From the NCBI RefSeq assembly GCF_032362555.1, contig NC_083526.1, positions 4,050,001-4,114,000 on the forward strand: a DNA stretch of 64,000 nucleotides. The letters are read 5' to 3'. Under the pieces are notes generated by a model. The model searched no databases and was not told where the DNA came from. It was given only the letters and a program-made list of their open reading frames with translations. A program made the position numbers and the translations under genes. The first letter of the stretch is position 1. The number at the start of each line of letters is the position of its first letter. This DNA is from Amyelois transitella. Taxonomy: Eukaryota; Arthropoda; Insecta; Lepidoptera; Pyralidae. Shown piece after piece: positions 4,329-57,942 of the stretch.

Positions 4329-6978
4329 ATGCAAGTCATACGATTGAATAAGAAGATTTTCTCAAGACTTCTGATAACAAGATGGACAAGAAGAAAATAT
4401 ATCCTAATTTTTTTCGTAATATTCTTATGTTTTCTTTCAAGTTTTTATACAATCATACTCGTAAGATCTAGTACGATACTAAGTACTCATAAGAGTAACC
4501 TTTCATACGTGGTGGTGCATTTGGATTTCAAGAGAACTCCATTAAAATTGGATTATCTGAAACGGCTGCTATATGAGTTAAAGAATCATGGTGCAACTGC
4601 GCTTTTGCTAGAATATGAAGATATGTTTCCGTACGAGGGAGAGCTGATTAGTTTGAGAAGCAAACATTATTATACCAAAAAAGAGGTAAATTAAGTTTGA
4701 ATAGTAGTAAATATCGTCATATCGTCAATCATGATCGATCCAGTACTGGTTAGGTTCCCCTGCAAAGGTTGGAGGCGGTGGAGGTCAGGTGGGAGTCGCG
4801 TCGTGCAAAAACCTGACTCATCTAATTCAGGATACATGGTCATAGGCACTCTCCAGAGTGGTGAGGATACAACCGCGACTAAAGCCAAACAGAAGAAGAA
4901 GTAATAAATATCATCATCATAGAGTGTTATTTTTCTTGTCATGTCTCTCTCCACATCTTAATACTAATAAGAAGCTGTTGTTTATTTCATATTTTTTGTC
5001 TTTTATGTACAGCTTAAACAATTTCTAGAACATTCAAATGCATTGGGTCTAGAGATAATTCCACTAATCCAAACCTTTGGTCACCTCGAATTTGTATTGA
5101 AGCACAACAAATTTAGACACCTCAGAGAAAACTTTGCGTACATTGACTCGCTTTGCCCCAGCAAGAAGGAAAGTAGAAGATTAATCAAAAACTTGCTGTT
5201 TCAGGTATTTTTTCATTTCAATTTCAATTTTATAACCTTTTGATGATTGAACCTATGGTACATACATACATATTGTCACGTCTATATCCCTTGCGGGGTA
5301 GGCAGAGCCAACAGTCTTGAAAAGACTGAATGGCCTCGTTCAGCTATTTGGCTTTATGATGATATAAATAGTGACAGGTTGCTAGCCCATCGTTTAAAAA
5401 AAAGAATTCCAATTTTGTAAACCTATCCCTTAGTCGCCTTTTACGACATCCATGGGAAAGAGATGGAGTGGTCCTATTATTTTTTCATTGGTGCCGGGAA
5501 CCACACGGCACTAATGAAAAAGTTTTGATATATTTAGCTAAATGACTTAATGATATAATTGTGATTAAGAAAGATTGTTAACCCATTGCCTTTCTTGAAA
5601 CATTTTATTTTGGATATAAACGTGAACAAAAGACCTTTAGATCAAAAGTCTTTTGAGATTGAATGTAGAATTTATTATAGAAATGATAATGGTGAAAATT
5701 TATTCAATTGTAATCGAAATCTTTTACAGGTTATAGAGTTCCATAAAAGCATTACTCCATTAAAACACTTTCACGTTGGTTGCGACGAAGTGTACAATAT
5801 GAATTCTTGTAAAAATTGTGTGGAACGAAATCTAACCAAGTTGTAAGTACTTATCTATATTGCATCAACAACATTTTATAAACAACATTACTACTAAAAA
5901 CAATTTACCTTATTCTAGTTGTGTTAATGGAGAAACTGGAACAAAACATGTAGCTTGTTGGCTCCCTTTTTCTTTACTGTACTGTACTTTTATGTCTATC
6001 ATCAAATATTTCAGAGAAATCTACTTGGACCACATTCAAACAGTCACTAACATGGTGAAGGACTTTTCTCCAGGAACGACCGTACTTATATGGGATGATA
6101 TGCTTAGAACAGTATCACTTACTAATTGGAACATCAATACTAATATTCCAGTAGAACTGGTTTATTGGAACTACGAAAAATCCTTTCAAGTATCGCATGT
6201 TAACCTTATGAAATATCATAAAACATTTCCAAACATTTGGATCGCAACAGCATACAAGGGCGCTGATGGTATTGAAAGTGTTCTTCCGAACGTTGAAAAA
6301 AGATTCTTGAACCATTTTACTTGGCTGCAAGAAATTTATGACTATACATTTGGAGGTGAGAAAGAAGTGTTTAATTTCAAAGGCATTATTTTAACAGGCT
6401 GGTCCAGATACTTTCACTTAGCGCCGTCTTGCGATCTTTTACCTGCGTCAATACCAAGTCTCATATTAAATTTGTTATTAGTCAAAGATTTCATCACAGG
6501 TGATTTCACGAGTGCTGTAAAAACTAAATGGTTCTTTAAATTAAATGATCCATCTGGTTACTTTCATGAATATTTGAATCATAAACTGGAAAAGTCACTT
6601 CAGTGTGAAAGTGTCGAGGTTTCATTTAGTAACTTTAATAATAAACTAGTAGATTTTGATAATTTACTTCTTAGTAACTGCAATTTTGAAGAATGGAAAT
6701 TTTACGAACATTTGAAGCAATATTTAGAACTTAATTCCAATGTTGTTACCTCACACAAAGTATCAAAGTACATACAGAGAAATAAAGTCATTAATGGAGA
6801 AAATGAAAGTAGTTGGTGCAAAGATGTTTCGAACCAAGTAATTGAAATAAACGCTTCATTAACAAATACCATGAATAAGTACTATGAAACTGACTTTATT
6901 GTTGAATATGTTTCTGATAAAATATCGTATCTAACGAAAACTATTGTAAAAAGCTGTGGTATTTTATATAACACCTAA
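4329..6978 (+). CDS. Hexosaminidase D-like glycosidase (GH20), membrane-anchored, 4 exons
   Basis: Predicted beta-N-acetylhexosaminidase of the HEXDC (hexosaminidase D) branch of GH20, removing terminal GlcNAc or GalNAc. Exons are 4329-4685, 5013-5204, 5730-5842 and 6015-6978 (phases 0, 0, 2), with GT/AG at each junction, giving 541 aa. Residues about 24-45 (ILIFFVIFLCFLSSFY) form one hydrophobic segment after a basic N-terminus, which suggests a type II anchor with a luminal catalytic domain. Family hallmarks follow in order: 'EYEDMFPYEG' in exon 1, 'PLIQTFGHLEFVLK' in exon 2, the GH20 acid motif HVGCDEVY near residues 198-205 (Asp-Glu pair) in exon 3, then 'LIWDDMLR', 'VYWNYEKS' and 'ILTGWSRYFH' in exon 4. 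The catalytic Asp and Glu are intact. The start is the first ATG before the anchor; I saw no earlier coding exon. Intron 1 carries a family D repeat and intron 2 a family B repeat. Activity and specificity are inferred. Confidence 0.88.
4728..4900 (-). repeat. Dispersed repeat family D, copy 2, in hexosaminidase intron 1
   Basis: It shares 'gtggaggtcaggtgggagtc', 'caaaaacctgactca' and the terminal 'agaagaagaagtaataa' with the copy at 770-915. Confidence 0.65.
5261..5512 (+). mobile_element. Family B element, copy 1, in hexosaminidase intron 2
   Basis: It starts at a (CATA)n tract, then 'tcacgtctatatcccttgcg', 'acagtcttgaaaagactgaa', 'gacaggttgctagcccatcg', 'cgccttttacgacatccatg', and ends at 'gtgccgggaaccacacggca'. 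The 3' end contains a GTGCCG/CGGCAC stem and is followed by CTAA. Full-length relatives are at 19277 and 23943. Confidence 0.8.
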
Positions 6979-7118
6979 GTTAGGGCTTTTATTATTTATT
7001 TCAATAAGTATGCTTTTTTTACTGTATTTTGATGTGTATTGCTGATGTTTTTTAGATGAAATGGGAATAGTGGAAAGTATCTTGATCAATTGGGCGACAT
7101 TCTGACTAGTCATCAGTC

Positions 7119-7124
7119 AATAAA
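7119..7124 (+). terminator. Candidate polyadenylation signal AATAAA of the hexosaminidase gene
   Basis: AATAAA lies about 140 nt after the stop codon at 6978, in an otherwise non-coding AT-rich flank. The cleavage site is not determined. Confidence 0.45.
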
Positions 7125-8683
7125 AGGTATAAAAGAAATAATAATACACTTATTAAAGGTCGCATACTCAATGACTTTATAATAAACATTAATATCCCAA
7201 ATATTTCACCAAATATGCAGCCTGCTGTACGTATTTATCTGATCAGGACATAAGGAGCCCGTTAATTAAATTCCTTCTAAGGTCCCAGACTTCCATTAAA
7301 CCACAATGGTTCGAAAAAAATATTATTGGACATCATTGTAAAACAATGATTTAAAAAAATAAAGCAGTTGATTAAATCAAAATAAGAGTAGAAATTTTAT
7401 TGTAACTTAACTATGTACACTTGAAACCAATAAGTGTAAATCATAAGTCTATGACAATGTTGTTAAAGAAATAAAAAGGAAATAGTTCTCACATTGCTAT
7501 GGACTTTTTTTTGCTTTCGTCATAGTCATGTAAAATATTTCTATTAGTTTCGAAGGGCATTTCATTTTCTTGTCTTCTGTATATCAAATTTAAAGATTAT
7601 AATAACCAGTATGGGCTGTGCATCGTTTGTCATTTACTCAGTAACGGAAAAGTTTAAATATATTGATATTGATTATACTTAGCGTTAAGTGCTTTACGTG
7701 TATCCTCTCGGTGTTCCGCAAAGAAATCCATTGAATCACCGGCGCTGGAAAATAAATCCTATGTGAACTCGCCCAGTCTGTTTGTGGTTTGGAAAATGTC
7801 TGTCTATTTGTGCGGTTTTGTTACTCCGATCGTATTGTAAGATACGAACACCAAGTTCAATTTTGTATTTAAAGACCATTGCTCTCGGCTTCAATGGTTT
7901 ATGAAATAATGGATCAGGTTTTATCTTCTTCTGCTTTTTTTTTTGCCTGCGCAATGTTCAGATATTGCCAATTTGAAATGAATTTCGGACGTGTTATGTC
8001 TGCGTATTTAAAAAACTTTTCTGATGTGCTTATTTAAGGAATTATAAAAGTCTCTTATTCTTATCAAAGAGTGTTCACCGACGAGAACATAACGATTTTC
8101 ATTTTTTTAAATGTTATGCTCTATATATCTTGTTAAATGTGCTGTTGGAAATTTTCCTAAAGATTTCAGGCTATGTCAATATGTACACTATTAATATTAT
8201 CTTCTTTGAGACATTCTGACGCCTGGGTACATGAAGGGGTACGTATTAAACAGATATTTAAAGCTTTGTTTTGCATTAAAATTATAAAACTTAAATAATA
8301 AAAACTTTTATTTACACACACAGCAACGATAAAAGTAGAAAACATAATTTCCATAAAATTAGTAACAATATCACCTATAACGCGAGGTTATATAATTAGC
8401 ACCAATTCACTACTAAACTATGAAGTTTAATTCTATGACAGGCAGAAAAACTTTAAAAATTTCTTCTACTAAATTGTAGGCTCTGATGAATTCACTATAT
8501 TTTAGTCAATAATTTATGACACTTCGTCAATTTTACCACATTGTTACGCTCCGATTATGAATGCACGATTTGATGGAGTCAGCATTAAAAAAACTCGATA
8601 TATTTATGCCCGTGTAAGTGACTCTGCTCTTTTATTACATTATTCCCATTAAAAATCGAATTTCAGCTGTAGAACATAATACA

Positions 8684-8738
8684 AATACAACGTAATACGA
8701 ATACAATACAAATTATCTTTATTGCCCATAAACTGAAG
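8684..8738 (-). repeat. LINE 3'-tail-like fragment
   Basis: On the minus strand it reads 'tatgggcaataaagataatt' followed by a TTGTATTGTATT-type repeat tail. The same tail ends the element at 52866-53097 on the plus strand. It is probably a dead 3' fragment of a non-LTR element. Confidence 0.55.
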
Positions 8739-8973: not shown

Positions 8974-11900
8974 TTATCTATTTTTTGGATCATCATTTTC
9001 ATCTTTTACTTTACTTTCTTTATTTTTATCTTCTGTGTCATTCCTAGGTTTGTGAACCGGAACTATTTCAGTCGGCGGTGGAGTCATCGGCACTAAGCTA
9101 CCGTCATCTTCAGAAACTTTCAAACCTATAGTCGCTCCTAACTTAGCACTGGCCTGCTTAAATGTATTTGACAATTTAACTTGCACGACATTAATGCACA
9201 TAGATGTTAAAGCCAATCCAAAGACTAAATAGAAAATGGAAGCCATCATGAACATTGGATGATCAGGAACTAAATCGCCAAGTCCTATGGTAGACATTGA
9301 TATGAATACAAAATAAAATGACTCGAAGAAACTCCAAGTTTCCCACATGTTGTAGCCGACGGCACCTATAATTAAATACACGACTAGAATAAAGATGGCT
9401 ACTGAAATTGGCAGGTTGAACTCATCATCTATTTCATACAATGAAGGCGCTGGTGTGTCAGGATCCGTTTCGTTTTCTATATCTTTGATTTGGACAACTT
9501 GGCCAGGTTTAGGGGGAAGGGGCGGAGGGACATCACTTGGTTTTCTCTGAACTACAGGAGGAGTCTCTCCTGTTTTAACTTCCAATTCCTCTTCTGAGAA
9601 GATCTGAGAAGGTCTTCTTACGACGTCGTAGACGATGTTCAGTCCTTTCATTACTTCCTGTAAATATAAAAAGCATACTTTTAATGTCAGTTAATTATGT
9701 TTAATGTCAGTTGTGTTTCATTCGCAATTTTCAGAATGTTACGTTAAACTTTAAACTTTCCAAATTCTACGAAATTTTCCCACGATCTTATTTCATCTCA
9801 ACTCTAATTAATCACTTTTCGTCATAAGTACAGTGTGAACTGACAGCATAAAAATGTAGCTACATTTCTGAAAAATATACTGATTGAAATTGTTTTTTTT
9901 GTTGTTCTAAAGGGCAAGTATGCGGTGATCCTAAAAACATACCGCTCAGCCCGAGGCATAATCATTACTCATTTCTGAATAAAGGAAAACATTCTCATTG
10001 TTTATTTGTCTTACATATTTTTCAGAACAACGCAACGGAGAAAGGAATTTTTTACAAGGTTCTGATTTGTTTTATAAGAACATATACCCATATTATATAT
10101 AAGGAATAAATATTTTATCTTGAATGTTTCTTTATTAAACTTTTTTCTAATTACTTAAGTCTTTAACATCAGTAAAATAAAAATATGTAAGTAAATAAAT
10201 ACGTAAAGTTTTCAGATATCTTAAAGTGATATTGCTGATATTATTAACAACTAGCTTGTACCCTTCGCCTGCGTCAATTTAGTATCTACCACCTACAAAA
10301 AAATACAGGTTTCTCACAAATCCCATGGAAACTATAGTTTTTACCGAGATAAAAAGTACTCTTAATTTTATATACGCAAAATTTTAAAAAAGATTGGTTC
10401 AGTAGTTAACTACCAAAACAATTGGTTGAAGAGACGACAAACTAATAAATGAACTTACATTTGCATTTATTGGTTTACCCAGTGTGTTTTAAACCAATAT
10501 AATTTTGCCTTCACCAAAGAAAGCTTAATCAATGTACCGGTTTTTATCTTTCTGTGTTCAGTTTTTGTTGTGCGTCTCTGTCAGTCAGTCAGACTATAAT
10601 TAATTTTGTACGTGCATATTAATAAGAATCACTTAGCCAACTATATCTATAGGTATCTTAATATTTAAGATCAAAGAGCTTGTACTCAAACGACTCGCAT
10701 GAAGCCTGAGAAAAAGACAGAGACAGATGTAACCATAACTTTGATTTACAAATAAACCAACCTGTACTGGCGCTGTTCTTCTGACCTTCCTGCAGCTTCT
10801 CGTATAATAGAACCTCCTTATGAACGCCCAGAAGAACTTGATGATCCTAGTGAAGAGTTTACCGAAATCAGCCAGGACTATAAGGAAGAGTGGGATTCCA
10901 ACGATAGCGTAGACTATGGTGGCGGCGCGCCCGTACGTCGTCTTTGGAGATATGTGACCGTATCCTGGAATATTTAAGGTTATGTTAGAATCATCATACA
11001 AAAGAATATAAGATTTACCCTTATACTGCTTCAATAAAATATAAAATCACGCCTCTTTTCCCTAAGGAAAGGCAGAGACTACATCTGGTGTCATCCTTGC
11101 TTACTTCTTTCTCTTCGTGTACATTCATTGTCCTCTTTTTGCATGCTCGTTGGTTTATTTTTGGTGATATTTACAATTCACATTATTTAACGCTTTTAGA
11201 ACATAACTTTTACAAAGAAAAAGAGGTCGGAATACCTCGCTCTCTCTTACATACACAAATATTATACACTCATCGCAGTCGAAACCAATTGCATTCCCAA
11301 GTGTAATTTCAAGTCAGGCAAATAGCCCAATATAAAATTTGCAAATTTTTAAAAGCATAAATAAACTGAGATACAAAGAAACTGACTGTGTATGTGACTG
11401 GACATCAGTATCAACGAAGAAGTAAATATACTTCTTAGAAAATTATAATTAGCAATTACTATTTCAGTTTGTCATTGTTGTTTCCATTAATTATCTACAT
11501 TAACATTGATTTGAACTTGTGATTCAATTTAATTTAATTCCCGTAGAGTGTAAAGTTCCCATTAAATGCTAAATTGTGCTGTGTATTTATTTGCCCACCG
11601 CAAATTACCCTGTAATTAGCTTTGATTACTTTTTCATTAAGCTATTGACCATCTGAACCTTCGTACTATTAATAAAATGCATTTTTTAAAATGAATAATT
11701 AACAAAAGTCTGTTAAATCATCTATAAGAAAATTTTGCACAGACATAGTTCTTGAGTTACATAATTGATTTTTTTAAACAGCTAACACACCCATGTACAA
11801 GAAAATAAAATGAAGACCCGTAGAAGTATTATAATCGTATACAAATGCTCCTGAGCTTTTATCCTTAAATATCACAAAAGCTATACATATATATATTATA

Positions 11901-13948
11901 TTGACGTTCTATACAAACATTTAATTTTTCGCTGATAGTGCATTTCACTCTTTTATTGAAAAGCAAATTTTAAGCTAATATTAAATCTTTATTTTTACGT
12001 TTTGAAATCAAATGAAAAAGAAAATAATGAGACGGGGAATTATTCTCAAAAAAAAAAAAAAAAAGTATATAAGTATCCCAAAATCTAGTACACACAGTAC
12101 ATAAGCACCAACTAGGTTTAAAACTTTCACTTATCAGTCGTTGTAATAACTACCTAGGTATAAATAATATTTCCTATATAACGACTCCAGAATACACGAT
12201 TCGCACCGAGATGTTTTGTCATAATGGAATCATACGCGACTCGTATGAACCTATTGAAATCTTCAACAAAAGTACGACGTATCAGTGAGAGTACACCTAT
12301 ATTTTGCGCTGGCAGCGGATATTATTTTTTCCGATCCTTACTAACAATGTTACGTTCATCGATAGATACGAACTACCATGTCAGCATGTCGACCGGTTTT
12401 ATATGATTTTTATCTTTTTCATCGAACGCTGCGCTAAATCAATTCTCTTGAGCACGTACGTATGCTGTTTCATAACGTTTTTTTTTTTACTTTTTCTTGG
12501 CATAAAAGATGAAAAACCTAAACAGAGATGGGAGAAAGCGAATAGGAAATCTACACAAAAAAATATCTATGCATCATCATATATTATTTTTTGGTATAGA
12601 TTTCTTTAAAAGCTATTGCAAGATTGGACGGTAGTCGTCTTCATGTAAAAACTGTCAATGTGGCACAATTGGACTTCGCTCCAGTGAGGTGAAAAAGGAA
12701 GACGAGAAAAAAAATACCAAGATAAATAAATAAGTAATTAATCTTACCAACAGTTGTAATTAACGTCAAGCAATAAACAAAAGAGTTCATGAAATTCCAG
12801 GATCTCTGTCCGCTATATGACGTCACTCCCGCCTCGTGTGCAGTATGCAGCTGCTCCTCAAATTCATACAACTTTTTCCTAGCCATTGATTTCCAATCCT
12901 CTTCCTTCATATAGTGGCTGCCCCTCCACAAACTCTCAATGAAATCTCTTTTCACACCCCTAGTTCCACACTTATAAGCGTTTTCAAATGATCCTTCCAA
13001 AGACTTGAACATCATGCCCCCTAAACCACACATTATTATTAACAACAGTAAATCACATATACATCTGTTACATTGTAACTTTATTTTAATGTAATCTTGC
13101 TCGTATTCTTGTCTGAATTCCTGCCAATTCGATATTAATTTCCATCTACTTTTAATGGGTTTATTTTTATCAACTGATTTTGATTTAATTTTTTTAAGAT
13201 CTCCTTTTTCCATGTCTTTGCTTTCTTTCATTACCCCGTTTTTATTATCTACAATAGATCGCTTTCTAAGACTAGACTTTGGTTCAATCTGATCATCTTT
13301 TAGTACAGTGTCATAACTATCTTTTGAAAGAAGTATATTACTAAGAGTTTCTCGCTGATCTGCTTCTTGGCTTAAAATATTTAACTTCCGAGTCAATTCA
13401 GCCGTTCTTTCTGATAAATCAAAATCGAATTCATTTTCACTTGGTGATGTTGAATAACAACTTGATGTATATTCAGATTGACTTGCATCTATATATCCAG
13501 AACTTCTCCTTCTTCTTGCAGGTTTTTGAGGTTTTGTTGCTTGTTTTTGACTGACATTTAATCCTGATAAAATTTCTTTATCGCTTATAATTTGAATAGT
13601 TTTAGGGCATGAAATACCTCGAGCATGCCTCGGCGTTGATGGGGTTTTAGTTGGTGTTTGTAAATTTTTATTATAATTTTTGTACTCTGATGGAAGCCGA
13701 GGATCATCTTTTGGTATTGAAAGACTTCGCGCTCGAGCTTTTTGCATCAATTCGATTATTTCTCGGCTTGTTTGACTCATACCTGTACCTGTTTTATCTA
13801 TGACTTGAACTAAATCTGCTCGATTAACGGATTGAGACCTATTTGCTCTTGGAGATCTACTTCTGACAAATCTTCTTGGAGTAGGTACTGCTTTGCGCCT
13901 CGTTCCAGCGACATTCGTATTCTGAAGAATTGCCTGATCCTCACTCAT
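8974..13948 (-). CDS. Same K2P channel, proximal-start isoform with a different TM1/pore 1
   Basis: The alternative front half is one exon, 13969-12748, with ATG at 13948. It joins the shared exons 10964-10762 and 9657-8974 for 695 aa. The exon ends ACTGTTG|GTAAGAT in phase 1, exactly like the exon ending at 18147, so LITTVG joins YGHISP. Its N-terminus (about 290 aa) is basic, Ser/Thr-rich and probably disordered ('RRFVRSRSPRANRSQSVNRA'). TM1 follows (CDLLLLIIMCGLGGMMFKSLEG), then a cap ('FENAYKCGTRG') and pore helix 1 (FMNSFVYCLTLITTVG). The exon opens with an acceptor (ttacag at 13970), so an upstream exon exists. The 21 nt before the ATG are in frame and open. The two front halves have no obvious sequence similarity outside TM1 and the pore. 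Confidence 0.82.
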
Positions 13949-16900
13949 CTCACTCTCACTAGTTTTACTCTGTAAATATTATTATGGATAAAATATTAGT
14001 TATTCTTCTTATGCTAAGTAATCGACAAGATCACCATACTTTGACAATATTTAAGTCAGTTGAAAATATATTGCTATTAACAAAGCGACAAACAAAATCA
14101 CAACTAATTTGATGTAAAAACTGACCCCAAATCTAGTTGCTGATTTACTTCTCGCTGGTTTCACGGGAGGCACTTTACTTTGTTGTTCTTCTCTAGTTTG
14201 CTTTTGTGGTTGTTGTTTATTAATAACCGGCTTTATATCTGTTGACATCTTTCTGCTAGGAGTTCTAACAATACGCTCCCGCACTTCAACTACTGGCTTC
14301 TTTTCCGGAATTAATTTCTTGCTTGGGGTTCTTTCAATAGCTATAACCTTTGTTACAAGTTCACCAGGAGCCGGAGCTGGTGTTTCTGGTGTTTTTGGTG
14401 TTGTAACTTTATTATTTTGTTTAATATCTTTCTCGTCGAAACTGAAGACTTGTTCATTTTTCACTGGAGTTTTAGATTTTTTCTCTGAGTCATCTGACTT
14501 TTTTTCATCTGGGTATACCATTTCTTCTAACTTTTTAGGAGTAGTTGGCATTGGGAAATTAAATTCACTTTCTTTTGGTAATCCGCTGCTTGATAAAGGA
14601 GGTGACAAAGAATTTCGTCTTTCTTTAGGTGACTCGATAGTAAGAGAATTACGTCGAGTAGGTTCTTCATCTTTGAGATTTAAAGTGTAATTCGTACTTA
14701 ACAGTTTATTTGTTGGATCAATAAAACTTCCTTTTCTTTGTAATAGCACAAGTTCTTCTTTATCGGGAATTGCGAACGGTGAAACACTTCTTCGTCTCCT
14801 TTCATTAGCAGCCATAGCCCTAGCTTCTAAAACTTCTTCTGTGTTCAAATCGTAAACAGGATCTTTAACATTACATTTTTCTTGAACCATGCGCCGCATT
14901 TCTTCATACGTTTTATCCGCTTCAATTTCTCTTGAATTTCGCTGTGGTTTAAAATCTTCATCATCGGATGTAGTTGTGTCTTCATGTGGTACAAGCGTTC
15001 TGCCAGGTTCTGGAGTCTTCTCTCTTTGTCTTGCCGCTTGAGTTCTATTTTTTGATAAGTTTCTACGTTTTCTGATTGACATTTGCTGTTTCTGTTCAGT
15101 GTCCATTTCGTCGGGTTCTTTTTTATCAGGAGATTTTGAAACTAATTGACCACTGGTTTGTGTCTCGGATTCTGCTTTTATTGTAGGGATTTTTAGGGTA
15201 AGGACATTCTTTTCTTCCTTCCTCACTTCACTCATTACCTATCTTCTCCTTTACGTTGCGACTGTAAAAAAAAACACGCGTGAATTAGATAACAGCGAAT
15301 CGATACTGATTATTCGAACACAAAGAGCCGCTAATTTTGGCATCCATCAATAGGTCTTCTGCCAATGTTGTATGAGATGACAACAGCAATCTACACAGCA
15401 CTCAATACTACTTACCGTTTCTGTATCGGCCGATATAAACTTCAACGGGGTCAAATCAGATGCCTAAGAAAAGAATCTATTTTGGACGCCTCATCGTGAC
15501 ACGCGTAAACAAACATGTGCGGGACACATTATTTTTGTCACTCTTCCTAGTGGATATCACTTTACACTTTCTATGTCTTGATAAAAGTCTTTATTTATCG
15601 ACGTTTCGATTCGTAAACATGGATTGTCGTGAAATTTCTAAATGCACTCTTCGGTTCAAGCTTGCAGTAACTGAGCGAAAAGCCAAGCCGCTGGGCACTG
15701 ATCCAAATTTAAAACAACTATTACTACATTCACGTTAGTTCGTATAGCGTACACTGATAATAATAAGCACGACCAAAATAATCAGACATTCGTCGTATGC
15801 TAAAAGCAATCAAATAACAAAGAGACTAGTGTGATCCCACATCGTGAATAGTTCAGGTTAAATTGGGTCCACATTGGAGCGCTTTTGTCAATATATGCAG
15901 GGAAAAATTGCGTTTCATTTTTATTTTCCACTCCATGTTCATCATGTCATGTGTACGAGTATATTTATCAAATTGTCACAGTTGGATATATTTTAAGGGT
16001 TTTCGTTATTATTTGCTATTTTCTAAAGAAATCTCTACCAGTGAATGTCAGAAATTCATTAAAGTTATACATAAGTAAAGGTAGTGAAAAATTACGAATA
16101 GGAAAAAAATACCAAGTCAACTATCCTGAATAGGCCATTGAGACGTTAAATAATACAACTTCCAATATTTTTATCCAACTTAATAGGAAGTAGAATAGTT
16201 TTTTTATTTCATTACTGTTGTTGTGAGTTAAAACAGAAAGGAAAATAACGAGCTAAATAAATATCGCGTTTGAAATATTTCAACGGGAAACAAAGAATTT
16301 TCTTTCTAACGCATCCGAACCGCTTTGTGTAAGCTTTTGTGGGGCCAAATATAAACATTGTCGCGTTTCTAAAGAAATAAATAAGTTAACTTTCATTTCA
16401 AAGACTACAATTGTTGATGGCACTACTATTATTAGTGTGAATTCCTTTGTTTTGTCGACGCTTAAGAAACGCCTGCTGTTTTAAAATGAAATCCAAGAGG
16501 TGCTTTTGCAGTATTGCTATGAAAATAATTCAGGCGAAAAGGTATTTCAATTCAGAAACTTCTTTGTTGAAAAGATAAATATAACTGTGATAAATCTATT
16601 TTTGTTCTATCAACTGTTTAAGCAAAATATAATGACTCTTATAGATGACTTGGATAAACACAAATTGTATCTACTAATTATTTTATTGATAATTTTTTTT
16701 TATTAACCGACGGAAGCAAACATAATAATTATCTTCTAACTCTGGGAAGCTCTTCATAAGATGTCTAGGACTCTGTTTTAAACTTACAGTATATAAGTAT
16801 ATACTGTACGAATAACAGGTAAGTACCTGAATGAGTATTTTGATCCAATTAGACTTGTGACCCACTTATGGTAGACTGACCGTTAACGTAACTAAATCAC

Positions 16901-19900
16901 TGGCATCCATGCTAATCCACACTTCCATTTTAATGAATATCCACATCCATAAAGAAAGTCAAATATTTGTATCTTTCTCTTTTAATACTATTCGTTTGCG
17001 AATATTACACGTACTCCCATATTTCTGCATAGATTTTATTGAAATTTGGCACACACAGAACAAACTTTCAGAAAAAAAAAATGTCTACTTTTATATTTTT
17101 TGATAGGTTATTCCCATAAGGTCCCGGTTCATTCCCGGGCAAAAAGCTAGTTAATGCTAGCCATCTATATGCTAAAAACCGCGAGAGTCGTTAATTTTAT
17201 TGAAGCAGATGGACTATGGAAATTTTTATGAGAAAATTACTTTTCAACTTCACCTTATAAAATTTTTAAAGACTGTAAACTTAGCGAATTGAATCTACCC
17301 AAAGGTAATTAAGGTTCTTGTAAGGAAGCCATTACATCTAAAATTATAATTTATCGAAAAATATTATAGGAATATAATGAAACGTAATTTTGTTTGTTAA
17401 TAAAGTCGGTAAAAAACCTATTTTGTTCTCAGATTGTATTTTGTTTTTAATTAACTGAAAATTGTAGCATCGTATAATATATTCTATATTGGCTTTCGAT
17501 ATTTATGTCATTTCAAATTAAGAAAAAAAACTAGAATCTCCTGTTTTCAATATATTTTCTTACAAGATTGCCTTTTCGGAAAATGTGGATTCGCCAATGA
17601 CCACATGACGGAAAATTTAGTATTTGTTATTAAATTTTCATTGTCTAAAACTATAAAGGACTTGTTGTTTTTTACGGTGGGCTATCGGCATATAAAAAAA
17701 TTCGCCTTGAAAATTTCTGATGCACAATTTATCAATACTTTTTATGACATCAATTAGGACTTGATTTTGTTCCATTCTATTCTGCCGGCTTAAATACAGA
17801 CTTACCATCATTGTCATGTCTGGGGAAGGACCGGGATCCCAAAGCGGACTGGTCAGATATACGAGTATATACTGTGTTACTTTCATCTTATCTCTATATC
17901 TCTTTCCCAGGTGAACATAACCCACCATTATTACACCATGTTACACCATGATCAATTACCTACTTTCCTCATATTAGTTAAGCGCTTTTGAAGTCGTAAA
18001 ATCAATCGGGCTAGCAACCTGTTACTATGTAAATAACAATTTCATCACTAAGCATTACAACGTACCCTTTTAGTCTTCTCATTACTGTTGGCTCTATCTA
18101 GCCTGTAAGGGATAAAGACGTGATTTGTATGAGATAAATAACTTACCAATTGTAGTGTAAATGGTTCCAGCGTAGAATAAAGAGTTCCAGAAGGTCCAAG
18201 TCTTCTTTTTGGAGCCGTCATTGTTGGTATGCTTCATGCATTCTGTGTAGTTCGCTTCGTAGGCTTTTAGATCTTCTACGATTGCACTAAGAATATCGAA
18301 GTTTCTGTCCTGTAGAAAGAGAGTTGCTTTTTTAGAAGTGAAGGTTATGTCAATCCCATTTTAATCAAAATTGCGACTGTATTTGTATAGAAAAATGGTT
18401 AAGATTTGCAAGATGCCTCGAACAGACTATTACGAATAAGGAATCAATTTTATTTCTAAAACAAAAAACCTTCTATGTGATGATTCTTATGTTATTTTGA
18501 TGATATGCTTTGCTTGCATCCTATCATATAGGATGCAGGATCAAATAATTACTAAATATTACCCCTTTTTATCAGAAACTTTAAGTAACAAAATGTTCAA
18601 CAAAGCGAAACGTCTCATGAGCTATCTGCCTGCCTAGTAATCAACCATGTAGCAAAACTTCTATCAAGAGGGCTGATTATATAACGTTATATTTCCTACT
18701 TTAATACTTCCATAAAAATAATTTATATTTCTCTCGTCTATAATATTTGAGTCACTAATTTGAAAAAAAAAACACTTGGTATATATTTGTACATAAACTC
18801 TAACACCAAAGGATGCAGGATCTATTGGCCTCGGTAAGTAGTAAATAAAATTGATTGTTCAGTTATAGGTAGGTACTCACTTGGAATCGTGTGTGATTTC
18901 TAAATATTGATTCATGTATCTTCATCGCCATTTCTTCTCTGACAAGCGTTATGTTCTTCACATAATTTTCTTCGTGTGGGCCTGAAACAAGAAAGTTTAA
19001 CTGTCAAATAGGTAACTGTCAATATATAATTGGGTTTACGTATTCTAGGGTATGATTATTTACAAACTAATTGCGCCCCGGGGCTTCGCTCTCGAGGGAA
19101 TTTCGGGATTGAAAGAAGATAGATACTTATTATGATTTTCCAGGTTATATTCTACCGGTATACAAAATTTCGTCAAATCAGTAGATTTCGCGTGAATGAG
19201 TATCTAACAAACTCACATCCATACATCCTTATAAATTTCATATTAATTTATTATATACGTCTATGTCACGAATTAATCACGTCTATATCCCTTTCGGGGT
19301 CGACAGAGCCAGCAGTCTTAAAAAGACTGATAGACGTTCAAATGTTTGGCTAAATGAAAGAATTCAGATTCGAATAGTGACAGGTTGCAAGCCCATCGCC
19401 TAAAAGAAGAATTTCAAGTTTAGCCTATCCCTTAGTCACCTTTTATGACATGGAAAAGAGATGGAGGGGTCCTATTCTTTTTTCTATTGGTGCCGGGAAC
19501 CACACGGCATTTATTATATTAGAAGGTTTATATTATCATATCGTAGCGCATTTCTGATAGCATCATTGTTATCAATCATAATATTTTCAAAGAACTGTGA
19601 TCATAAGCTTAGATCTACTTTTAACTGTAAAGTAACTTGATGACGGATACAAAGTCTAACTATAGATATACTTAATAACTATACAAATTGGAATAATTAT
19701 GAGTACTTTTAAAAATAATAACTAAGTTTCATTTTTATTTCTACGAATATATATCAAACGAATAGAAAAGTTCAAAATAAGGGTCAATATTTGTATAACA
19801 TGACTGAGATTTGAAGCCCAACCCCCAAAGTTCAAAGGGAAAAACATTACCAGTATGCCAAAGATGTTTCATAACTTACATTATGAAATCTTTGGAGTCT

Positions 19901-37900: not shown

Positions 37901-38980
37901 ATTTTAATATAAAAAAATAAATATTTACATCTGTAGTGATTGTTAAAATTTCATAGTACTTACCTAAATTTTAATGATTCTTGAAACACGTCATGTACCT
38001 ACGTAGAAATACCTACATATAAAAAAGTATTAACACATATCTTGCTGCTATTTAAATAAATTCTTGTAAAACAATACATACCTGCTTGTTCTTAAATATA
38101 GCATAACATTACAGCGAAAATAAAGTACGAGGCTTCGTTCGCGTAAAAATTTAAAGATGTTCTCCAGATAATGCCTACCATACCATATCATATCATTAGG
38201 TATACATGAGTATAAATATTTTCTAGATTTCACAAAATTTATCTTGATCAGTATATTTTTTATGTCAATCACCTTTTTATGCACACTAGATTATGATTGT
38301 GGCCGCAGCTATGCCTTGGGAACTAAAAATCTCATTATTACTCTTTCTCTTCGCTAGGAACCCAATACACTTCTCAAGAAAAAGACATGCCAAGTTTCAG
38401 CTTCCTATGCCTACTGAACGTAACATTTCAGGTTACACAACTGAAGACCTAAATAATAATGATTGATGACGACAAATTTTAACTTGAATACAAGGTATAA
38501 AAATAATAAACATGAAAACTTACCTTCTAAAGCCATAAACATAGCAGCTCCCATAAAACTGTACAGCGCCAAACAAATAGTCAAAAAGAAATGCGTAAAC
38601 CACTTTTTGGACCACAACCTTAACTTATTATAGAACCAGAACGCGCTCTTTTCACCAACACTTAAACCACTTTTAGCCGTATTCATAGTAAAATCTTTGA
38701 AACCTTCAAATTGCTTGAACATGAATTCTGAAGCCTTGTTATGGTACATATGAAGGAAGGGGTTAAAGTATGGGTTTTGTGGGTCGGAGATGTGAGAAGC
38801 GGGGGTGCCTGCTGGCCTTCCATGGTATCTATTTGGTCCCCAGTAAACAGACGTGGCTGTGGGCGGCCCTCGTGGACTGGCATGACTTGAAGCATCAGGA
38901 ATCTGCAGTGTTATCTTTGGCCGGACTATCTTTTTCGGCGGCGGGGGTGGCGCGTACTCCGGGGGTACTTCCAGACTCAT
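8974..38980 (-). CDS. Two-pore-domain (K2P/TWIK-type) potassium channel, distal-start isoform, 5 exons
   Basis: Potassium leak channel subunit of the plasma membrane, working as a dimer. Exons on the minus strand are 38980-38524, 18981-18881, 18309-18147, 10964-10762 and 9657-8974. Phases are 1, 0, 1, 0 and the product is 535 aa. The order is: a Pro-rich N-terminus (PPEYAPPPPPKK); TM1 near 127-148 ending FMALEG; an extracellular cap with two N-glycosylation sequons (NIT, NYT) and a Cys; pore 1 with TTIG|YGHISP split by the last phase-1 intron; TM2 (YAIVGIPLFLIVLADFGKLF); a cytosolic loop with PPPLPPKPG; TM3 (ISVAIFILVVYLIIGAVGY); pore 2 with STIGLGD near 431-436; TM4; and an acidic/basic C-tail. 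The donor at 10761 is gttggt, a weaker match than the others. A 19.5-kb intron follows exon 1. I cannot say which insect K2P this orthologues. Confidence 0.88.
9658..10761 (-). other. Last intron of the K2P gene
   Basis: The sequence at 10250-10452 ('ctagcttgtacccttcgcct', then 'ttggttcagtagttaact') resembles the decayed non-autonomous element family E. The remainder is unassigned, and I saw no extra exon. Confidence 0.5.
10965..12747 (-). other. K2P intron between the proximal pore-1 exon and the filter/TM2 exon
   Basis: It contains a family C copy at 11044-11163 and AT-rich DNA. Two short plus-strand open frames near 12224-12609 lack any family resemblance or splice context. No exon was found. 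Confidence 0.5.
11044..11163 (+). repeat. Dispersed repeat family C, copy 8 (degenerate)
   Basis: It reads 'aatcacgcctcttttcccta', 'ggcagagactacatctggtg' and 'cttgcttacttctttctctt', ending 'gcatgctcgttggttt'. It aligns in order with the copy at 34205 but is diverged. Confidence 0.6.
14051..15235 (-). CDS. Disordered protein with a C-terminal membrane anchor; alternatively the N-terminal extension of the K2P channel
   Basis: I do not recognise this 394-aa protein. The ORF is uninterrupted. It is preceded by a polypyrimidine tract and acceptor (tttacag, AG at 15263-15262) with in-frame stops between acceptor and ATG, so a non-coding exon lies upstream and ATG 15235 is the likely start. Residues 1-370 are charged, Pro/Ser/Thr-rich and low-complexity, with repeated basic-Ser patches ('RRNSLTIESPKERRNSLSPP'). 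Residues about 374-391 (FYIKLVVILFVALLIAIYF) form one hydrophobic helix ending three residues before the stop, as in tail-anchored proteins. A candidate donor, GTCAGT at 14125-14120, sits in phase 0 immediately before this helix. Splicing it to the acceptor at 13970 keeps frame and would give a 1,072-aa channel. A separate gene is also possible. Confidence 0.6.
   Translation of the reverse strand: MSEVRKEEKNVLTLKIPTIKAESETQTSGQLVSKSPDKKEPDEMDTEQKQQMSIRKRRNLSKNRTQAARQREKTPEPGRTLVPHEDTTTSDDEDFKPQRNSREIEADKTYEEMRRMVQEKCNVKDPVYDLNTEEVLEARAMAANERRRRSVSPFAIPDKEELVLLQRKGSFIDPTNKLLSTNYTLNLKDEEPTRRNSLTIESPKERRNSLSPPLSSSGLPKESEFNFPMPTTPKKLEEMVYPDEKKSDDSEKKSKTPVKNEQVFSFDEKDIKQNNKVTTPKTPETPAPAPGELVTKVIAIERTPSKKLIPEKKPVVEVRERIVRTPSRKMSTDIKPVINKQQPQKQTREEQQSKVPPVKPARSKSATRFGVSFYIKLVVILFVALLIAIYFQLT
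15262..18146 (-). other. K2P intron/intergenic stretch
   Basis: No exon was recognised here. A reverse family B fragment lies at 17995-18125, directly beside the pore-1 exon ending at 18147. An undetected 5' UTR exon for the 15235 start could lie here or farther upstream. Confidence 0.45.
17995..18125 (-). repeat. Family B fragment
   Basis: It reads 'cgggctagcaacctgttact', then 'cttctcattactgttggctc' and 'gggataaagacgtgatt', the reverse-complement front half of family B. Confidence 0.6.
19061..19250 (+). repeat. Decayed family E element
   Basis: It contains 'gcgccccggggcttcgctct', 'gggaatttcgggattgaaag', and later 'tcgtcaaatcagtagatttc' and 'gaatgagtatctaacaaact'. This is the usual layout of very common lepidopteran non-autonomous elements. 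A family B copy follows it directly. Confidence 0.5.
19277..19509 (+). mobile_element. Family B element, copy 2
   Basis: Near full length: 'tcacgtctatatccctttcg', 'gccagcagtcttaaaaagac', 'gacaggttgcaagcccatcg', 'gtgccgggaaccacacggca'. It has the same order as the copies at 5261 and 23943. Confidence 0.8.
21319..21576 (-). mobile_element. Family B element, copy 3
   Basis: The reverse-complement order is intact: 'gtgctgggtggttcccagca', 'cccatggatgtcgtaaaagg', 'cgacaggctagcgacctgtt', 'cttttcaagactgttggcgc', 'gggatatagacgtgacc', then ATGTATGTATGT. Confidence 0.8.
22565..22629 (+). repeat. Dispersed repeat family C, 5' fragment
   Basis: It reads 'atacatacataaaatcacgc' then 'ctctttcccggaggggtagg' and 'cagagactacatttttccac'. 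The right part is missing. Confidence 0.65.
23341..23560 (+). repeat. Family B element, degenerate copy
   Basis: (CATA)n is followed by 'aaccacgtatttatctctta', 'gacaaagccaacagtctttt' and 'aacaggttgctagcccatcg'. The 3' half is diverged. Confidence 0.6.
23943..24207 (+). mobile_element. Family B element, copy 4 (well preserved)
   Basis: A (CATA)n start leads into 'tcatcacgtctatatccctt', 'acggggtagacagagccaac', 'aaaggccacgttcagctatt', 'gacaggttgctagcctgtcg', 'gtcgccttttacgacatcca' and 'gtgccgggaaccacacggca'. It serves as the reference copy in this window. Confidence 0.85.
24293..24418 (-). repeat. Family B fragment
   Basis: It reads 'ggtattcttctttcagacga', 'gggtagcaacctgacgctat' and 'ccgtacggaacaaagacgtg', a reverse-oriented left half of the family. 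Confidence 0.55.
26098..26190 (-). repeat. Dispersed repeat family C, copy 3
   Basis: It reads 'gcttgcatgaagagagttat', 'gaagtatgcagagatcatgg', 'caagtggatagatgtggtct' and 'gcctacccctca'. Confidence 0.7.
28031..28266 (+). mobile_element. tRNA-derived SINE (family A), copy 2, 5'-truncated
   Basis: It has the A-box region 'tggcgcagcggcagtacgc' and B box 'gggttcgaatcccggccag', then the unique body ending 'gtgtaatttgtcccgtatat'. It lacks the first GGCCTC of the 44550 and 56730 copies. Confidence 0.8.
30414..30665 (-). mobile_element. Family B element, copy 5
   Basis: Reverse-complement order is kept: 'gtgccgtatggttcccagca', 'ccatggatattgtaaaaggc', 'gcgacaggctagcaacctgt', 'accccacaagggatttagac'. 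It is nearly full length. Confidence 0.8.
30906..30959. repeat. Near-perfect fold-back, about 25-bp arms, 3-nt spacer
   Basis: Arm 1 30906-30931 and arm 2 30935-30959 are reverse complements apart from one substitution and one 1-nt length difference. Pairing can extend a few bases outward (ACTAATCTTG against CAAGACTAGT). Confidence 0.85.
31244..31415 (+). repeat. Family E element (right part)
   Basis: It contains 'cctactaatattataaatgc', 'catgttt'-like and 'ctctttcacgcaaaaactac', 'taaaccgattacgatgaaat'. It ends in the fold-back at 31400. The reverse-oriented equivalent is at 47757-47975. Confidence 0.6.
31400..31452. repeat. Perfect fold-back, 22-bp arms, 9-nt loop
   Basis: Arm 1 31400-31421 and arm 2 31431-31452 are exact reverse complements. 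Each contains the inner palindrome TTCCCGCGGGAA. It lies at the junction of a family E element and a reversed SINE tail. Confidence 0.95.
31461..31531 (-). mobile_element. tRNA-derived SINE (family A), 3'-tail fragment
   Basis: On the minus strand it reads 'acacaagtttcgaacttact', 'tcgaggctaactcaatcagt', 'gtaatttgtcccgtatatat'. Only the 3' end of the SINE is present and there is no tRNA-like head. Confidence 0.7.
31620..31812 (+). repeat. Family E element fragment
   Basis: It starts near 'atattttcacgcgttatata' and ends 'gtgcggacggatccgcgggt' plus 'aaaagctagtt', a typical terminus of decayed lepidopteran non-autonomous elements. Confidence 0.5.
34205..34352 (+). mobile_element. Dispersed repeat family C, copy 4 (best preserved)
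   Basis: It reads 'catatgtacataaaccacgc', 'gcaggcagagactacttctt', 'tccacttgccacgatccctg', 'catacttctttcgctcatcc' and 'cttcggtttcgggtactctt', ending in 'gacctgaa'. It begins at a CATA-like tract as family B does. Confidence 0.75.
34517..34634 (+). repeat. Dispersed repeat family C, copy 5
   Basis: It reads 'gcctctttcacagaggggta', 'ggcagagactacattccact' and 'ttctttcgcttcaaccacat', and is truncated after 'aacccatgcaag'. Confidence 0.7.
35130..35755 (+). repeat. Family E-type element, long copy
   Basis: It begins 'agtataaaacaaagtcgccc', continues 'actacgcaacggattttgat' and ends 'gaagttgcgcgggtcagcta'. These boundaries are characteristic of common lepidopteran non-autonomous elements. It has no coding capacity. 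Confidence 0.55.
36536..36757 (-). repeat. Family B relative without fold-back
   Basis: It reads 'taatgagtgccagcagtttt', 'catgcagattgtaaaactca', 'atttgggattcttctttcaa' and 'aaaggataaagacgtgatta'. It is the sister copy of 1225-1492 and shows what that copy looked like before its inverted duplication. Confidence 0.6.
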
Positions 38981-44500: not shown

Positions 44501-45113
44501 CAGGTTGCTAGCCTATCGTCTAAAACAAGAATCCCAAGTTTATAATGACGGCCTCTGTGGCTCAGCGGTAGTACGCTTGTCTGTGACACCGGAGGTCCCG
44601 GATTCGAATCCCGGCCAGGGCATGATGAGAAAAGAACTTTTTCTGATTGTCCTGGGTCTTGGATGTTTATCTATATAAGTATTATATTATAAAATATAGT
44701 ATCGTTGAGTTAGTATCTCGTAACACAAGTTTCGAACTTACTTCGAGGCTAACTCAATCTGTGTAATTTGTCCCGTATATATCTATATATTTATTTATTT
44801 ATATTTATAATAACCGAATACCTTAGTCGCCTTTTATGACATGTAAACTTGAGACTGAGTCGTCCTATTTTTTTTTATTAGTGCAGGGAACTGCACTGCA
44901 CAATGAAACGATAAAGTGCACATTTTTGAAAAATAAAATAATGTGGAATTAACAATACGACGGTATAAAAGTATAAAAACTTTTTTATGATTACAGTGTT
45001 GCGACCTCTCAGGAAGCGATCTCCACGAAGCCAATTTGCGTGGCGCCAATCTGAAGGACGCCGCGTTCGAACTCATGTTGACTCCGCTCCACATGTCCCA
45101 GACTATTAGATAA
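41533..45113 (+). CDS. KCTD9: BTB/POZ and pentapeptide-repeat protein KCTD9, 6 exons
   Basis: Orthologue of KCTD9, a BTB adaptor of the KCTD family; members typically assemble as oligomers and many bind cullin-3. Exons are 41533-42100, 42375-42574, 42950-43085, 43785-43859, 44267-44385 and 44997-45113 (phases 1, 0, 1, 1, 0), giving 404 aa against 389 in human. Residues 1-95 form the KHA-like N-terminal domain. The BTB domain runs from about 99 to 200 (DWITLNVGGKHFTTSRSTIL, then IDRSPEYFDPILNYLRHGE). Pentapeptide repeats of the A(N/D)LxG type run from about 255 to 385 (GANLSHCCLERADLSHANLE; ANLQNCDLRSAVLAGADLE). The last residues, MLTPLHMSQTIR, match the vertebrate C-terminus closely. Intron 5 holds a SINE inserted into an older family B element. 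Reading through the first donor would add nine residues and a stop at 42132, giving a BTB-only form. Confidence 0.95.
42640..42800 (+). repeat. Two family B left-end fragments in KCTD9 intron 2
   Basis: 'atcatcacgtctttatccca' with 'agacttaaaaagactgaaag' is followed by a second start, 'acatatggtcacgtctatat' with 'cccttgcggggtagacagag'. Both are cut off shortly after. Confidence 0.6.
43122..43216 (-). repeat. Family B fragment in KCTD9 intron 3
   Basis: It reads 'tctatcattaagccaaatag', 'ctgaacatggccattcagga' and 'gcaagtgatatagacgtgac', ending at ATGTATGTATG. Confidence 0.6.
43232..43380 (+). repeat. Dispersed repeat family D, copy 3
   Basis: It begins 'cttcttcctcctggctactc', then 'ggattggatgagtcaggttt' and 'cccatccaacctctgcaacc'. 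It is in the opposite orientation to the copies at 770 and 4728. Confidence 0.65.
44477..44902 (+). mobile_element. Family B element split by a SINE
   Basis: The left part is 44477-44549 ('atagaattgaaatttaatgg', 'caggttgctagcctatcgtc', 'agaatcccaagtttata'). The right part is 44822-44902 ('ttagtcgccttttatgacat', 'gtgcagggaactgcactgca'). Joined across the SINE at 44550-44810 they restore the family B order. Confidence 0.75.
44550..44810 (+). mobile_element. tRNA-derived SINE (family A), copy 4, full length
   Basis: Head: 'ggcctctgtggctcagcggt' and B box 'ggattcgaatcccggccagg'. Body: 'aaagaactttttctgattgt', 'cctgggtcttggatgtttat', 'aatatagtatcgttgagtta'. It ends in a TATTTATTTATA-type tail. It is nearly identical to the copy at 56730. 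Confidence 0.9.
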
Positions 45114-55400: not shown

Positions 55401-57942
55401 CGATAGACTATGTTGAAAAAATTATTTATATAGAAGAAATCATCGCGAACACACTGTCTGGCCACATGCTGTCATAATTTCACCTATAGATGTTGCGTTT
55501 AAGCCTTTATTTTTACCCAGTGATTTACATTTGTACCGACAGGGCAATATATTATAGGTACGTTAATACACTTGTTTATATATACATTTGTTCCGCAGGG
55601 CAACACGACGGAAGGCGACGACGCGAAGTCGGGCAAGCCGCGGCGCGCCAGCCGCCGCCGCAACAGCCACAAGGCCGCCGCCAACACCGCCGCCGCCAGG
55701 GACGACGGCAAGCGGGACGAGCGACACAGGAGGCCCAAGCGGCCCAAGCCTGTCATCGACTTCTCCGTCAAGGTTATATATCATTCTTCTTCGATATCGC
55801 CCGAAGTTAAAGAGGCTGAGTCCAAATAACGAGACATGTCAGCAAACACATGTTTATACATACAACTACGTTTTTATGACTTACGGAGTAAGTAGAGCCA
55901 ACGATCTCGTAAAGCCACAACTTTGCCAAAGAGATCAAACTGGCCCAAACCCGCCATCGACTGTTCTGCAAAATCTGATATTTCCATACATATTTAAAAT
56001 CTTGTCTTTTTTTCCTTACGGAGTAGACGTTAGGAGAGAAAGCCCTACCTTGATCAAGTCCCAGCTCAAGGTCAGGTCAGGAGTACCCTAAACTGGCGAG
56101 CTTACGTTTATTTATTTAACTAATCTTTGAGTGGAAACGCCTAGACGAATATATCTTGATCAAATTGTCTCCAATTTGGCAAAAAGTCATGAGTTCCCGA
56201 AACAGACAAGCTTGCATGAAGAATAGAATGTGGATGAAGCTAAAGAAGTATGCTGGGATTGTGGCAAGTGAAAGGATGTAATCCCTGTCCACCCTTCCAG
56301 GAAAAAAGCGTGATAACAAACGCAATAAACTTAATTACAATATTTGGCTATTAAAATGGGATTTTTGTAGGCGGCGGGCCAGCGACCTGTCACTATTTTA
56401 ATCTCAATTATATCATTGAGCCACACAGCTGAACCCCGTATGTATGTTTACGCTAAGACTTTTTCTATCAATCAATTTGATTAATACTTACCTGTATGTA
56501 TTCCGTTTGTCCAACAGATATCCAACATTGGCCCGAACACCCGAGTTCGCGACCTGAAGCAAGCGTTGTCTGAACGCGGAGTGAAACCTCAAGTGATGGT
56601 GTGGAAGGGCTTCCGGGGATTCTGCTACCTGCACTTCTTCAAGCCTGGCCCGCAGAAGGTGAGGATAGTTTGATATGAGTAGATCAGTAATCAGAAGAAA
56701 AAAAAACAAAGTTCATGTTTAAAATAATCGGCCTCTGTGGCGCAGCGGTAGTACGCTTGTCTGTGACACCGGAGGTCCCGGGTTCGAATCCCGGCCAGGG
56801 CATGATGAGAAAAGAACTTTTTCTGATTGCCCTGGGTCTTGGATGTTTATCTATATAAGTATTTATTATAAAATATAGTATCGTTGAGTTAGTATCTCGT
56901 AACACAAGTTTCGAACTTACTTCGAGGCTAACTCAATCAGTGTAATTTGTCCCATATATATTTATATATATTTATATTTATTTATTTATAATAATCAAAT
57001 TGTTGTGAAACAGACATGAAAGTTTCAACTTCAATAACAAACACGCTTTTGACATTAATCTTATAATTTAAATTTTCTAACGTTGTGTGCATGATTACAA
57101 GACGTTAATTTTGTGAAAATGTAAACGTTTGCATATAGCATTCAGATCAATTTGCAAATTGATAATTTTTCACCTTTTTTAAGGTTCCGTTCTTCAAAAG
57201 GGAAAAAACGAACCCCATAAAGGATCGATTGTTTAAGTGAACGCGATTAAAATATACAACTATTTATTTCGAAAATTTAGTAAAATTTTGTGATTGCATA
57301 TGGGTTTTTTGCATTAGTGATAGGCTAATAAACTTGGGAGTTTTCTTTTGGGCGATGGGCTAGCAACCTGTCACGATTTAAATTTCAATTATTATATTAA
57401 TTAATATATTAATTATAAACTAAACTTGTTTGTTAATTTACCTTTAAATGTATTTATACTGCATCTTGCACGCAACGACATACCTACATTTGTATATTCT
57501 AAGCCTAGATTCTAAGTTCTCATGTAAGTGAATATTTTTCTTATGAGAATAAAGATTTCTTAACCCGAATTACACCATTAGGCCGTACAGATAAACAGTC
57601 GTGCCGTACATAGAGGTGAGGATGCAACCGGGACTAAAGCCAGGAGTCAGAGTGTATATATGTATGTTTATAAATCCAGGGCGAGGGCGACGCGGCGGCG
57701 GGCGCGGCCAGCATGGCGGGCGTGCTGGCGGCGCTGGCCGCCATGTCGCTGGGCGGCGCCGACGACGACAAGCCGCGCCTGCTCACCGTGGAGCCCGCGC
57801 CGCCGCGGAACGCCGAGGTGAGCTAGCACGCACGGTCACGTTACGACTTACACAATAAAAGATCCAAGTGGGCTCTCCAAATTATCTATCTCTCTCTCTT
57901 TCTATCTCTCTCTCTCTCTCTCTCTTTCTATCTCTCTCTCTT

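Follow-up and report, generated by a model that had tools for sequence, protein, structure and literature searches.

Organization of the K2P channel locus

The window analysed here, a 64-kb stretch (64,000 nucleotides) of the Amyelois transitella contig NC_083526.1, carries on its minus strand a gene for a two-pore leak K+ (K2P) channel that runs from approximately 39 kb down to 8.7 kb. Two front modules, a distal one starting at 38980 and a proximal one lying downstream of it, were found ahead of one back half composed of two exons, all on the same strand. The last exons of the two fronts end at 18147 (TTI|G) and at 12748 (TTV|G), both stop in phase 1 on the first glycine of selectivity filter 1, and both are completed by the same shared exon, s1. 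Judged from the sequence, this is probably one K2P gene in which each of two alternative promoters serves its own complete front module; the two modules would exclude each other, and two channels would be produced. A preliminary description of this DNA had already placed the two exon ends and the YGHISP start of s1, and all of these coordinates proved exact. Its proposal that each front brings its own N-terminus, first transmembrane segment (TM1), extracellular cap and pore helix is supported by the anatomy given below, and the filter residue could be read as I in the distal and V in the proximal front, as it had reported.

The shared exon s1 (10762–10964) completes filter 1 (G|YG) and encodes TM2. 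Its acceptor, ag|GATACGGTCAC, opens in phase 1 as (G)YGHISP, and the exon supplies (G)YGHISPKTTYGRAATIVYAIVGIP. The GIP glycine hinge of TM2 is present in s1 as VGIPLFLIV; this K2P motif and the numbering of TM2 are described in PMC6377628. The second shared exon, s2 (8974–9657), encodes the TM2–TM3 loop, TM3, pore 2 (STIGLGD), TM4 and the C-terminal tail up to the stop codon, and it matched PF07885 with an expectation value (E) of 1.2e-17. The first poly(A) signal downstream of s2 is located at 8723. When a piece of s2 was compared with bacterial/archaeal contigs and with viral contigs, in one scan each, no relative was found.

On the minus strand of the window, s1 was the sole exon start of the form AG|GN-(TAY/TTY/CAY)-GG whose frame stayed open for 8 residues or longer, and a motif scan of the window for pore-helix-1 donors returned only the two known ones, 18147 and 12748. 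A separate GYG/TM2 exon used by one front was looked for in the window scan, and none was present. The genome scanned (G000) consisted of 327 Mb in 33 contigs, with the window on contig C22. This contig holds 2 of the 40 genome matches to PF07885 (E ≤ 0.001), and both fall inside the shared back half; neither the window scan nor this search gave the distal front a further partner on the contig. The PF07885 search did not list the half-domain of either front, and other weak half-domains could therefore escape it likewise. The earlier statement that both fronts join only 10964–10762 held up, as the reading phase requires this exon and no other pore-1/TM2 exon appeared in the scans.

Distal front

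The distal front consists of three coding exons. Exon d1 (38524–38980) begins with an ATG, encodes a short, proline-rich cytosolic N-terminus of approximately 129 residues followed by TM1, and ends LE|G in phase 1 with the donor gtaagt. TM1 was located by searching for hydrophobic segments with a small-xx-hydrophobic-xx-acid motif behind them, for which ten matches were listed on this strand; the hydrophobic segment of d1 ends GAAMFMALEG. Beyond an intron of 19.5 kb, exon d2 (18881–18981; acceptor ttgtttcag, donor gtgagt) encodes cap sequence, GPHEENYVKNIT...NHTRFQ, with two N-glycosylation sequons, and ends in phase 0. Exon d3 (18147–18309; acceptor tttctacag, donor gtaagt) encodes the remaining cap with one sequon (NYT) and pore helix 1, and ends TTI|G in phase 1. 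The distal module reaches 38980, beyond the range of 10762–18309 that the preliminary description had assigned, and its cap, which covers approximately 70 residues after TM1 and before the first pore (P) domain, carries three sequons (NIT 162, NHT 181 and NYT 206), one more than had been counted.

The distal form consists of 535 amino acids (aa). Its filters, TTIGYG and STIGLGD, both match T-x-G-[YFL]-G and mark two P domains, and the whole protein matched PF07885 in two stretches (E 4.3e-39). The distal front alone matched PF07885 over pore helix 1 with an E of 1.7e-4, just below the family cut-off, in a match that covers half of the domain only. The best solved relatives of the distal front were TREK-1 (E 2.3e-5) and TRAAK (E 5e-5), whose alignments with it keep register all the way between TM1 and the filter.

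A possible small gene may be nested in the 19.5-kb intron at approximately 26708–25797 on the minus strand, where ATGGCTA could be joined to an exon from approximately 25985. Its predicted product is a 65-aa membrane peptide, MARYKEYDICDGRRADK..., for which no NCBIfam or Pfam family scored above cut-off.

Proximal front

One of the fronts had been described as unspliced. The proximal front, however, is probably spliced, and the best model consists of a 5' untranslated region (5'UTR) exon and two further exons, p1 and p2. The modelled 5'UTR exon (15416–15699) ends at the donor gtaagt at 15415 and is followed by an intron from 15415 to 15262; once spliced, the 5'UTR carries four upstream open reading frames of 5, 9, 12 and 21 codons. 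For the proximal transcript, a candidate core promoter could be located at 15668–15701, with an initiator (Inr) TCAGT, its A at 15699, and a downstream promoter element (DPE) AGTTA at +28 to +32. Two such Inr and DPE pairs were observed on the minus strand of the window, compared with 1.19 expected per strand under a Markov model, and the position of this pair, shortly before the 5'UTR donor, is thus only suggestive.

Exon p1 (14126–15261; acceptor tttttttttacag) contains the end of the 5'UTR and, from the ATG at 15235, 370 codons (15235–14126) for a charged, low-complexity cytosolic N-terminus; it ends in phase 0 with the donor gtcagt. Exon p2 (12748–13969; acceptor tatttacag, donor gtaaga) continues p1 in phase 0 with 407 codons, which encode the rest of the N-terminus, TM1, the cap and pore helix 1, and ends TTV|G in phase 1. 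Translation may instead start at the first ATG inside 13969–12748. The modelled proximal form has 1072 aa, with approximately 670 residues preceding TM1, and zero N-glycosylation sequons in its cap. Its filters are TTVGYG, completed by s1, and STIGLGD in s2, which gives two P domains; the 845-aa proximal stretch scanned for PF07885 ended after s1 and held one of them, the second lying in s2, which was scanned with the distal form. The N-termini that start at 38980 and 15235 look alike near the beginning (ITLQIP in the distal and LTLKIP in the proximal form), a resemblance that may be due to chance.

The proximal front showed 38% identity (query 66–136, E 5.9e-4) to the K2P front at C21:194 kb. 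The cap residues E73, W76, W87 and F98 and the pore-helix residue W119 are among the 13 columns that were invariant in its alignment with four paralogue fronts. TWIK-1 aligned in register with the proximal front, residues 41–136 on 23–109 (E 0.0076), with no single stretch significant. The proximal front alone matched PF07885 over pore helix 1 with an E of 0.0012, just below the family cut-off and again with half of the domain only. The K2P paralogue that comes closest to the proximal front (L034, G000:C21:193–195 kb) has a first filter that reads GHG, not GYG.

The coding potential of the proximal front was evaluated with an in-frame codon score whose training set consisted of other exons, including those of the distal front and of the shared back half. 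The score was 0.219 for p1, 0.117 for the N-terminal part of p2 and 0.126 for the p2 front, all three higher than any of 500 intron windows of 1110 nucleotides (nt; mean −0.028, maximum 0.071). As the distal exons were training data, the distal front takes its support from homology. The longest stop-free run on the same strand in the 19.5-kb intron was 112 codons, compared with 370 in p1 and 407 in p2.

The p1–p2 intron (13970–14125) is 156 nt long. If retained, it would add VSFYIKLVVILFVALLIAIYFQLT and a stop codon, a tail-anchor-like end, and could possibly yield a third product, a tail-anchored protein made from the channel N-terminus. This tail is an unusually good anchor, as 5000 Markov introns gave an equally hydrophobic one only 12 times and 1235 intronic GT sites never did. 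Such a tail would also fit a model in which p1 belongs to a gene or product of its own, ending in VSFYIKLVVILFVALLIAIYFQLT with its stop at approximately 14051, while translation of the proximal channel begins at an ATG inside 13969–12748, which would correspond to the unspliced front of the preliminary description. The p2 ATG located approximately 20 bases from the start of p2, the off-consensus donor of p1 and seven AATAAA/ATTAAA sites inside p2, which could end a p1-only RNA, agree with a separate p1. However, the donor, the acceptor and phase 0 suit an ordinary short intron between p1 and p2, and no AATAAA/ATTAAA was present between the p1 read-through stop and the start of p2. Moreover, the read-through tail had a codon score of −0.080 (72 nt), which is not coding-like, and the rest of the genome yielded no relative of p1 at E ≤ 0.1. 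A separate p1 product is accordingly regarded as quite improbable, and p1 spliced to p2 is preferred.

Proposed joining of two fronts to one back half

The open frames are intact in both fronts, with 240 codons in the distal and 777 in the proximal front. The same layout could be produced by a tandem pair of K2P genes, one of which is without its back half, so that one front would be functional and the other a decaying relic of a neighbouring gene; the divergence of the two fronts (26% identity) and their grouping with different paralogues are compatible with such a history. A relic of such age should, however, have lost its frame. Usable splice sites are present at all joins, both fronts enter s1 in the correct phase, the proximal front has kept its K2P residues and the distal front is in register with TREK-1, all of which renders a relic unlikely.

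Trial splices mixing the two fronts were short-lived in frame. Joining d3 to the proximal 5'UTR exon gave three residues and then a stop, while d3 joined to p2, or d1 joined to p2, gave one residue and then a stop; no channel is therefore expected from these mixtures. Joining d1 directly to s1 left the frame open, but the product would be without a cap and pore helix 1. Together with the proposed separate transcription starts, the failure of the mixtures suggests a simple switch in which the front is set by promoter choice.

Under the model of two promoters and two fronts, a distal promoter upstream of 38980 would produce the 535-aa channel, whose N-terminus is short and proline-rich and whose cap may be glycosylated, and the splice from 18147 to 10964 would skip the entire proximal module. 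A promoter inside the distal intron, at approximately 15699, would produce the 1072-aa channel with a charged N-terminus of approximately 670 residues and a sequon-free cap, with 12748 spliced to 10964. Both forms would use the same TM2, TM3, pore 2, TM4, C-terminal tail and poly(A) region. Exclusivity would follow from promoter choice, from reading phase and, as far as the scans show, from the absence of a further pore-1/TM2 exon. The two channels may differ in gating or in their partners. K2P channels are dimers and the back half is common to both forms, so that mixed dimers of the two forms would be possible.

Several observations weigh against this model. The Inr and DPE pair is a weak signal by itself, and the minus-strand scan of the window revealed none at the distal start. 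The distal form requires an intron of 19.5 kb, and the p1 donor gtcagt deviates from gtaagt. One off-frame of p1 scored 0.100, above every intron window, and both p2 stretches were set against windows of greater length, which makes the margin of p2 less certain. Among solved structures, the proximal front matched TASK-1 best (E 0.0022), mostly through the second pore of TASK-1 rather than the first. AlphaFold2, run on the proximal front with five sequences, predicted helices at 3–56, 65–79, 84–110 and 121–135; these would fit TM1, two cap helices and the pore helix, but the model was poor (mean predicted local distance difference test score 61.5, predicted template modelling score 0.32), and at this low confidence the layout is only consistent with a K2P front. 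Finally, a motif scan of the K2P loci read, mostly 1.5 kb on either side of the match, did not reveal a second locus with two fronts.

The filter intron in other K2P genes

An intron at this filter position had been put forward as known in K2P genes, and the genome agrees: a phase-1 intron within the first filter glycine was present at 11 of the 13 K2P pore-1 sites read. It was found in this gene, at C21:4.92 Mb, 4.755 Mb, 413 kb and 193 kb, at C7:145 kb and 1.148 Mb, and on C5, C12, C24 and C14, and was absent from C9:1.328 Mb, which is one open frame, and from C17:7.474 Mb. Both donor and acceptor were seen at 9 of the 11 intron sites, and the acceptor only at C7:145 kb and C14:1.185 Mb. The count includes the C21:193-kb site (GHG), which was added by eye. 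It excludes chance frames and five loci (L004, L006, L027, L040 and L043) that we take to be voltage-gated or Slo-like channels, and it is without several PF07885 places, including C15:5495 kb, C31:3424 kb, C31:6555 kb, C14:10936 kb and places on C4, C3 and C2. As the filter intron is family-wide, both fronts meet the back half at the standard boundary of the family. The junction itself is ordinary, whereas a second complete front within the filter intron is not.

A candidate for a second two-front locus at C21:411–413 kb was rejected, since its two pore-1 exon copies differ at 2 of 47 residues. These copies (L030 ~6256–7898; G000:C21:411256–412898) lie to the two sides of a GC-rich minisatellite, with a single YGHLSP exon downstream of them, and represent either a recent tandem duplication or an assembly artefact.

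Origin of the two fronts

The distal and proximal fronts are approximately 26% identical to each other (query 21–132, E 0.46). When pairwise scores were compared with shuffled sequences, the proximal front scored best with C21_194k (z 21.0) and the distal front with C21_411k (z 23.5), while the two fronts scored 11.0–12.4 with each other. The best tree of seven fronts, from which the partial C12 row was excluded, placed the proximal front with C21_194k, C21_4922k and C21_4755k (support 99/98) and the distal front with C21_411k and C9_1328k. The exon layout follows the same division, as the proximal front holds TM1 to the pore helix in one exon, like the fronts of C21_194k, 4922k and 4755k, while the distal front uses three exons.

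These results would fit a natural chimera, in which fronts of two K2P subfamilies share one back half, are joined in filter 1 and give two channels that differ in cap, filter and N-terminus, possibly also as mixed dimers, plus a tail-anchored third product. However, the branches of the tree are very long, the placement of the distal front was weak (57/30) when the proximal front was left out, and a constraint uniting both fronts in one clade was not rejected (approximately unbiased (AU) test, p 0.0916). The two-subfamily chimera is therefore treated as not shown, and we hold it to be rather doubtful. The same three observations leave room for an in-place duplication of one ancestral front, which would make the fronts ordinary alternative first modules rather than parts of a chimera. 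The separation in the best tree, the agreeing z scores and the single-exon layout of the proximal front stand against such a duplication, and it can be put forward only tentatively. It concerns the origin of the fronts alone and is compatible with two promoters serving two fronts of one gene.

The back half does not decide which front is native. The YG exon s1 had its best score with C21_413k (18 of 35 residues identical) and its most identities with C7_145k (20 of 35), while the back tree, from which the partial C21_411k and C12 rows were excluded, joined the back half of this gene to C5 (92/93). No front of C7_145k appeared in the upstream 10 kb that were read.

Comparison with known channel genes

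N-terminal variants of the K2P channels TREK-1 and TREK-2 arise by alternative promoter, splicing or start codon, and the locus would resemble them in producing N-terminal variants. To our knowledge, these variants do not exchange TM1, the cap or the pore helix. Another comparison is offered by Caenorhabditis elegans twk-40, for which PMC9049526 describes isoforms a, b and c, with isoform-specific upstream exons extending a common 393-aa channel, and gives evidence for different behavioural roles of the isoforms. Like twk-40, the present locus would obtain N-terminal isoforms of a K2P channel by the alternative use of upstream exons and promoters, but twk-40 adds N-terminal residues only, whereas this locus would exchange TM1, the cap and pore helix 1. 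Invertebrate NALCN and Cav3 channels, as described in PMC4436565, swap pore exons that alter the filter residue (NALCN) or the extracellular turret (Cav3). The likeness lies in alternative exons that change the pore region while the remainder is common; the NALCN and Cav3 exons described there are, however, internal exons of channels with 24 transmembrane segments, whereas the present exchange would involve the whole front half of a four-segment subunit, with its own N-terminus and likely its own promoter.

Alternative promoters or first exons of a K2P gene are thus of a known kind, and the exchange of the whole front is the unusual point. No K2P gene that exchanges its whole front half at the filter was found among the matches listed in the open-licence literature, an absence that carries little weight. 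Both isoforms may already stand in moth genome annotations.

Use of both junctions would mean that the N-terminus, TM1, the cap and the pore helix are exchanged as one cassette while TM2–TM4 stay fixed. The gene would then serve as an experiment of nature, from which one could learn whether the front or the back half of a K2P channel determines gating, pH or stretch sensing, and glycosylation. Any phase-1 front that ends at the filter glycine fits any back half, so that evolution can mix fronts, and the locus would show a use for the family-wide filter-glycine intron.

Neighbouring genes and other elements

The K2P gene is flanked by two genes on the plus strand, one from approximately 41.5 kb, which we take from its sequence to be KCTD9-like, and one at approximately 4.3–7.0 kb, presumably hexosaminidase-D-like. 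Three tRNA-like elements were detected at the Rfam threshold, at 1100–1171 on the minus strand and at 44551–44622 and 56731–56802 on the plus strand, and two of them were called tRNA-His by ARAGORN. These elements are perhaps parts of a tRNA-derived dispersed repeat.

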